Source: a virus. Taken from it: DNA of 41,508 bases. The stretch lies in the IMG/VR virus record IMGVR_UViG_3300024520_000170, positions 1 through 41,508 of that record; one strand, written 5' to 3'. A program made the position numbers and the translations under genes. Every line of letters starts with the position of its first letter. Positions within the stretch are counted from its first letter, which is position 1. This document shows, in pieces, positions 18,870 through 19,236 of the stretch. The notes below the pieces were generated by a model. It saw only the letters and a program-made list of their open reading frames with translations, was not told where the DNA came from and did not search any database.

Positions 18870-19236
18870 TTATCGGCCCTTGGATCCTGCGGACGCCTCA
18901 CATTATCGGCCCTAGATTATCGGCTCTCGACAGGGCCGGTAACGTATGCATCTTATCGGCCTGAACATTATCGGCCCTAAACATTATCGGCCCACCATCT
19001 TATCGGCCCCAAGATTATCGGCCCAGCATCTTATCGGCCCTAGCATCTTATCGGCCCCCTGACATTATCGGCCCTAGAATATTATCGGCCCTACATCTTA
19101 TCGGAACATAGATATATTATCGGAACATAACACGTTATCGGCCCCGGTATATTATCGGCCCAAGAAATATAGGATTTCTCTTGACATACCCGAGCAAGTA
19201 TGGATGGCATATTATCGGCCCCAACGTTATCGGTCG
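18870..19236 (+). repeat. Iteron-like array: 18 direct copies of TTATCGG(CCC)
   Basis: TTATCGG occurs, all in one orientation, at 18870, 18903, 18917, 18953, 18968, 18984, 19000, 19015, 19031, 19048, 19065, 19082, 19098, 19117, 19135, 19152, 19212 and 19227. Most have TTATCGGCCC; variants are ...GGCTC, ...GGCCT, ...GGAAC (twice) and ...GGTCG. Between 18953 and 19152 the step is 15-19 bp, with short variable spacers often containing CATC or ACA. No gene fits here. The layout resembles iterons bound by a replication initiator, followed by an AT-rich tract. TTATCGGCC is not a canonical DnaA box (TTATCCACA). A TTGACA at 19181-19186 lies in the one wide gap. Confidence 0.85.

Follow-up and report, generated by a model that had tools for sequence, protein, structure and literature searches.

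A candidate composite replication origin locus with two unrelated repeat arrays in an uncultured podovirus-like phage

Many phages and satellites have initiators of the SF3 primase-helicase type, but the origins of these have seldom been located. In iteron plasmids and lambda-type phages, the origin is built from direct repeats, spaced at about two helical turns, and from an AT-rich region after them that unwinds. In SaPI/PICI origins, two iteron sets bracket AT-rich DNA that lies directly 3' of pri-rep (PMC6092414), and the C-terminal domain of their Rep protein recognises the origin iterons (PMC7581432). For P4, the primase of the alpha protein is of the TOPRIM type (PMC4234260), and the section of the same source that cites Ziegelin and Yeo describes the winged-helix domain of gp-alpha as binding the origin repeats. 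The tail of ASFV C962R is similar to the origin-binding domain of P4 gp-alpha as well as to RFX1 (PMC10516667).

The DNA analysed here, called the window throughout, is the whole of IMG/VR record IMGVR_UViG_3300024520_000170 (41,508 nt). Because its two ends share 1458 bp, with 53 mismatches (1-1458 vs 40051-41508), the record represents a circle of ~40,050 bp, and since this overlap is 96.4% rather than 100% identical, the assembly probably mixes strains. This uncultured marine phage is podovirus-like and encodes its capsid, portal, and terminase proteins on the - strand at 6.7-13.2 kb. The early module occupies the + strand from 14.0 to 26.0 kb and begins with SSB, a 204-aa protein, a PrimPol-SF3 helicase, and an ERCC4 nuclease, continues with a 93-aa protein, array B, a 105-aa protein, a DUF932-like protein, and GP88, and ends with two HTH proteins (encoded at 23374 and 23610), RecE, and ERF. 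A phage with its own capsid, portal, and terminase genes is not a PICI element, a satellite that relies on the particle of a helper phage, and it is only the origin layout that is compared with the PICIs below. A BLAST search of 18300-19600 against isolate phages returned no match, and a genome scan for close host relatives gave matches of only ~28-31%. The features of the locus are as follows, with L065 denoting a relative whose primase is 91% identical to that of the window, within a clade carrying array B at ~91-92%.

15266-17443, + strand: PrimPol-SF3 helicase (D5_N, PriCT_1) with a C-terminal RFX-like winged helix, the candidate initiator
17616-18302, + strand: ERCC4-type nuclease gene, adjoining the primase in relatives whose contigs reach that far
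18320-18531, no strand: array A, a family-wide cluster of ten CAKGAYG-type sites spaced 10-11 bp apart inside each block
18388-18487, no strand: readily melted stretch within array A, ranking third among the least stable 100-bp windows of the circle (z -3.4)
18526-18807, + strand: gene for the 93-aa protein (phrog_13182), between arrays A and B
18846-18864, no strand: G-rich hairpin GGTGGGGGGGCTGACCCCC, between the 93-aa gene and array B
18870-19236, + strand: array B, 18 direct copies of ANNTTATCGGCCC, cores conserved relative to L065
18933-18942, - strand: inverted array-B site inside the array, TTACCGGCCC, with one mismatch; a perfect TTATCGGCCC in L065
19286-19385, no strand: candidate unwinding element, the most AT-rich 100 bp (68%) and least stable duplex (z -4.1)
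19290-19310, + strand: AGTGTAGTAAAATCGAACACT, an AGTGT/ACACT dyad overlying a -10-like TAAAAT, unchanged in L065 and with 3 mismatches in G011
19325-19334, - strand: TTATCGGAAC, an array-B site in inverted orientation within the AT-rich block, kept in L065 and L067
19528-19845, + strand: gene for the 105-aa protein, confined to the array-B clade, its fold lacking a confident prediction

An earlier note on this DNA had singled out array B as an iteron-like cluster of 18 TTATCGG copies, and the count is borne out: between 18870 and 19233, the motif starts on the + strand at 18870, 18903, 18917, 18953, 18968, 18984, 19000, 19015, 19031, 19048, 19065, 19082, 19098, 19117, 19135, 19152, 19212, and 19227, while chance predicts 2.9 occurrences in the whole window on both strands and the maximum in 100 shuffles was 7. 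The single orientation that it reported holds for all 18 array copies, but inverted sites lie nearby, at 18933-18942, at 19328-19334 in the AT-rich block, and at 19968-19974. The unit is 13 bp long, A-N-N-TTATCGG-CCC, with the A at -3 invariant (18/18 copies) and with endings of CCC in most copies, AAC in two, and TCG in one; the GGAAC variants do fall at 19098 and 19117, as the note had it. Successive copies are separated by 33, 14, 36, 15, 16, 16, 15, 16, 17, 17, 17, 16, 19, 18, 17, 60, and 15 bp. These steps fit ~16.4 bp, unlike the steps of iteron plasmid and lambda-type origins, show no 10.5-bp phase (Rayleigh p 0.97), and have no multiple-of-3 pattern, which removes a coding repeat from consideration. 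The core was also correctly described as something other than a DnaA box, as the window holds a single TTWTNCACA, at 8580; with no DnaA-box cluster, a DnaA-dependent origin was rejected. Array B shares direct repeats followed by AT-rich DNA with the iteron plasmid and lambda-type origins and differs from them in initiator class and in having no DnaA box nearby. In the window, the G-rich hairpin lies ahead of array B; in L076, L081, and L083, a C-rich/G-rich block comes after array A.

Between the window and L065, mismatches affect 4/180 positions of the array B cores (2.2%) and 29/185 positions of the spacers (15.7%; Fisher p 5e-6), with two units gained and one lost in L065. As the cores are kept while the spacers drift, the array B cores are, by this comparison, binding sites under selection. 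Together with the adjoining AT-rich region (19286-19385), such repeated sites are what an iteron origin is composed of, and that part of the earlier note stands: selected sites do lie beside easily melted DNA and replication genes. What finds no support is array B as the origin of the phage family. Every record of the 91-92% clade that extends to the locus carries it, seven with the window counted, and L063, L066, L067, L068, and L069 do so as far as their contigs extend. However, G011/L076 (39.6 kb, primase 52% identical) has no TTATCGG array, since the motif occurs once in the entire record, and no different 7-mer forms such an array there, even though the genome keeps SSB, the 204-aa protein, PrimPol, ERCC4, and GP88 in order, and L081 and L083 (primase 42-43%) likewise lack array B though their replication genes are kept. 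Array B is thus not maintained alongside the replication genes throughout the family. The note had held that absence from close relatives with the same replication genes would speak against an origin; the absence of the array from G011 bears this out in part, though a genome with a 52% identical primase is no close relative. Since the relatives at 59-63% as well as L074 and L075 stop before the expected place of array B, its age is uncertain.

A single TTATCGG site does adjoin array A in the 41-43% relatives, as ATATTATCGGCCC overlapping the ERCC4 stop codon in L081 and L083 and as TTATTATCGGAAC outside the ERCC4 gene in L082. These two forms show the same CCC and AAC endings as array B of the window, a link that was spotted post hoc and that concerns one clade only, with mutual primase identities of 78-84%. 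Most TTATCGG arrays in viral contigs outside the family have steps in multiples of 3 and therefore resemble coding repeats, and two unrelated viral contigs (L036 and the 160-kb L015) contain dozens of dispersed TTATCGGAC-type sites, mostly in one orientation. In G006, a 92% relative, a local cluster of CAGTTAG/ACTAACT 7-mers was seen at 19.7-20.6 kb (7 per 400 bp; L092/L093). Among the related contigs L063-L084, 16 of ~21 end 0.3-1.8 kb past the primase, and many of these ends, from different samples, fall in or beside arrays A and B, which suggests hypervariability at the strain level or some other obstacle to assembly in this stretch.

When the sequence that follows ERCC4 was read in all relatives, a second cluster emerged, array A, that is absent from the earlier note. 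Its sites lie on the + strand at 18320 and 18330, on the - strand at 18424 and 18434, and again on the + strand at 18473, 18483, 18494, 18505, 18515, and 18525, so that a + pair is followed by the least stable gap, a - pair, and a + block, the last site of which contains the start codon of the 93-aa gene. The same plan, consisting of a + pair, an easily melted gap of ~60-80 bp, a - site or pair, and 4-6 sites at ~10-11 bp, was found again in L065, L069, L071, L081, L082, and L083, and the layout is retained across 41-92% primase identity. In G011/L076, the last block is inverted, and a strict pattern scan did not find array A there, where only a looser matrix shows it. Site density reaches 6-10 per 300 bp versus ≤3-5 in shuffles (window, G004, G007, G015, G016, and L083), while the 10.5-bp phasing in the window is not significant by itself (p 0.10).

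Array A starts ~17 bp past the end of the ERCC4 gene, and as ERCC4 comes after the primase family-wide, only one gene intervenes between the primase and array A, which puts array A where an origin immediately 3' of a primase/helicase gene is expected apart from that single gene. The arrangement shares with SaPI/PICI pri-rep-ori a primase-SF3 helicase gene or genes followed by short iteron sets flanking an AT-rich region, as well as a tail domain proposed as the iteron reader. In contrast to SaPI/PICI, the module here resides in a 40-kb podovirus-like phage, has its helicase and origin separated by an ERCC4 nuclease gene, uses 7-bp sites at 10-11 bp steps, and is accompanied ~340 bp downstream by a second array of unrelated sequence. 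On balance, array A matches the SaPI/PICI origin layout better than array B does.

The AT-rich tract that the earlier note placed next to array B is the most AT-rich and least stable 100 bp listed above, and, ranked by duplex stability, the bottom three 100-bp windows of the circle begin at 19286, at 19075 (in array B), and at 18388 (in array A). The least stable DNA also coincides with array sites in three relatives, after array B in G004 (20103, z -4.5), at array A in G015 (9076, z -4.3), and at array A, tied first, in G011 (18551, z -3.6). Within the AT-rich region, a perfect 11-bp inverted repeat, AGTCATAAGTC/GACTTATGACT, spans 19386-19420, its arms conserved in L065 and its loop altered. 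Cumulative GC skew, which the note had proposed to check for a turn at 19.2 kb, does not turn there; after detrending, its minimum (14.8 kb) and maximum (26.1 kb) both fall at changes of gene direction, and the late genes give no leading/lagging signal. GC3 skew of the co-directional early genes is negative to the left and positive to the right of the locus in the window, G004, and G011; for G011, the 93-aa homologue was counted left although it lies at 28 kb, and moving it to the right weakens the separation in that genome. Wherever they were measured, SSB had a negative and HTH89 a positive value, so the shift is confounded by genes that show the same bias everywhere, and it lends weak support to an origin at the locus.

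With respect to the proteins that might read these sites, the helicase profile matches a DNA primase (PDB 7ola, 6.8e-13), and a model of its tail from a nine-sequence alignment is a winged helix (pLDDT 80.6), whose top solved match is the RFX DBD 1dp7 (E 5e-3, probability 1.00), followed by the ASFV PrimPol. Like P4 gp-alpha, the protein thus combines primase, SF3 helicase, and winged-helix tail in one polypeptide near an origin-like region with repeats, a likeness that covers architecture and fold, with an AEP PrimPol here and a TOPRIM-type primase there. The winged-helix tail would fit array A more naturally than TTATCGG. Among the other proteins, the family-wide 204-aa protein had no family match and no credible structural relative, and the 105-aa protein had no family match, no PDB match, and a poor fold model (52.4). 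Searches that started from one sequence of the 93-aa or the DUF932-like protein returned nothing and alignments were required; the 93-aa protein was rejected as the binder, as distant homologues in L108 and L109 occur without any array. Past the 105-aa gene, ~420 nt of noncoding DNA (19870-20290) is conserved far above the flanking DNA in L112/L113, relatives that share 65% identity with the window in the DUF932-like protein. It has an RNA fold z of -2.5, a consensus fold in which both partners of 5 pairs have changed, and no Rfam match, making it a candidate structured RNA.

From these results, we infer, with a probability of about one half, that 18.3-19.4 kb is a composite origin locus in which a conserved core, array A, is joined by array B as a lineage-specific auxiliary. 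The turns of the GC skew elsewhere, the late genes that give no leading/lagging signal, the phasing of array A in the window, and its failure to show in the strict scan of G011 speak against this reading. Lying just past the PrimPol-helicase and ERCC4 genes, array A would be the ancestral core origin, where the winged-helix tail may bind the CAKGAYG sets that flank the easily melted gap and the SF3 helicase would load and unwind. Array B would have expanded in the lineage of the window and would be coated by a different sequence-specific protein, each asymmetric site probably bound as a monomer, which may help to open the adjoining AT-rich block or may control firing and transcription from the promoter-like dyad. 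A tentative extension, which we hold with considerable doubt, has the two unrelated site families, one read by the helicase tail and the other by a second protein, acting together as a dual-code origin; the second code would then be old, its single TTATCGG(CCC/AAC) sites, as seen beside array A in the 41-43% relatives, having later expanded to 18 in the lineage of the window.

The main rival to the composite locus, possible but doubtful, would leave array A as the only origin and make array B an operator array for the promoter-like dyad at 19274-19310, with a phage or host regulator on the 18 sites silencing or activating the presumed promoter of the 105-aa gene, the structured RNA, and genes beyond. 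The invariant 48-bp block that holds TAAAAT and the AGTGT/ACACT dyad directly downstream of array B, the two encoded HTH proteins, and the lineage specificity of the array, often true of regulatory arrays, are all consistent with this. However, HTH_3 dimer operators are typically palindromic, whereas array B consists of asymmetric direct repeats; 18 operators are also many for one promoter, and consensus promoters are no commoner in the sequence than in shuffles (3 vs 2.3). The roles could instead be exchanged, with array B alone the replication origin, as in the earlier note, and array A a regulatory cluster, as the strong core conservation and the position of the least stable DNA after array B in the window and G004 might indicate, but the replication genes kept in G011 without array B, the lack of the array in L081 and L083, and the least stable DNA of G015 at array A make this unlikely.

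We consider it similarly improbable that array B serves in copy control or partition, either by handcuffing or in the manner of a centromere, and titrates the initiator or binds a segregation protein. Plasmid control iterons are likewise many same-orientation sites near an origin, and the GGCCC and GGAAC variants could give graded affinity, but the window proteins scanned with Pfam include no ParA/ParM-like protein, the podovirus-like late module gives no cause to expect long-term plasmid maintenance, and the cores of arrays A and B differ, so that the initiator need not bind both. Finally, unit number and spacing differ among relatives and numerous contigs stop within or next to the arrays, as neutral tandem expansion or an assembly artefact would predict, yet the same array was assembled from independent samples with its cores conserved far above its spacers, and its irregular steps are unlike simple tandem duplication, leaving this account with hardly any probability.

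Under the composite reading, a family-wide repeat layout with near-fixed spacing beside the initiator gene offers a testable candidate origin for uncultured marine phages, and the lineage-specific array B next door shows how a second binding code may join an existing origin.
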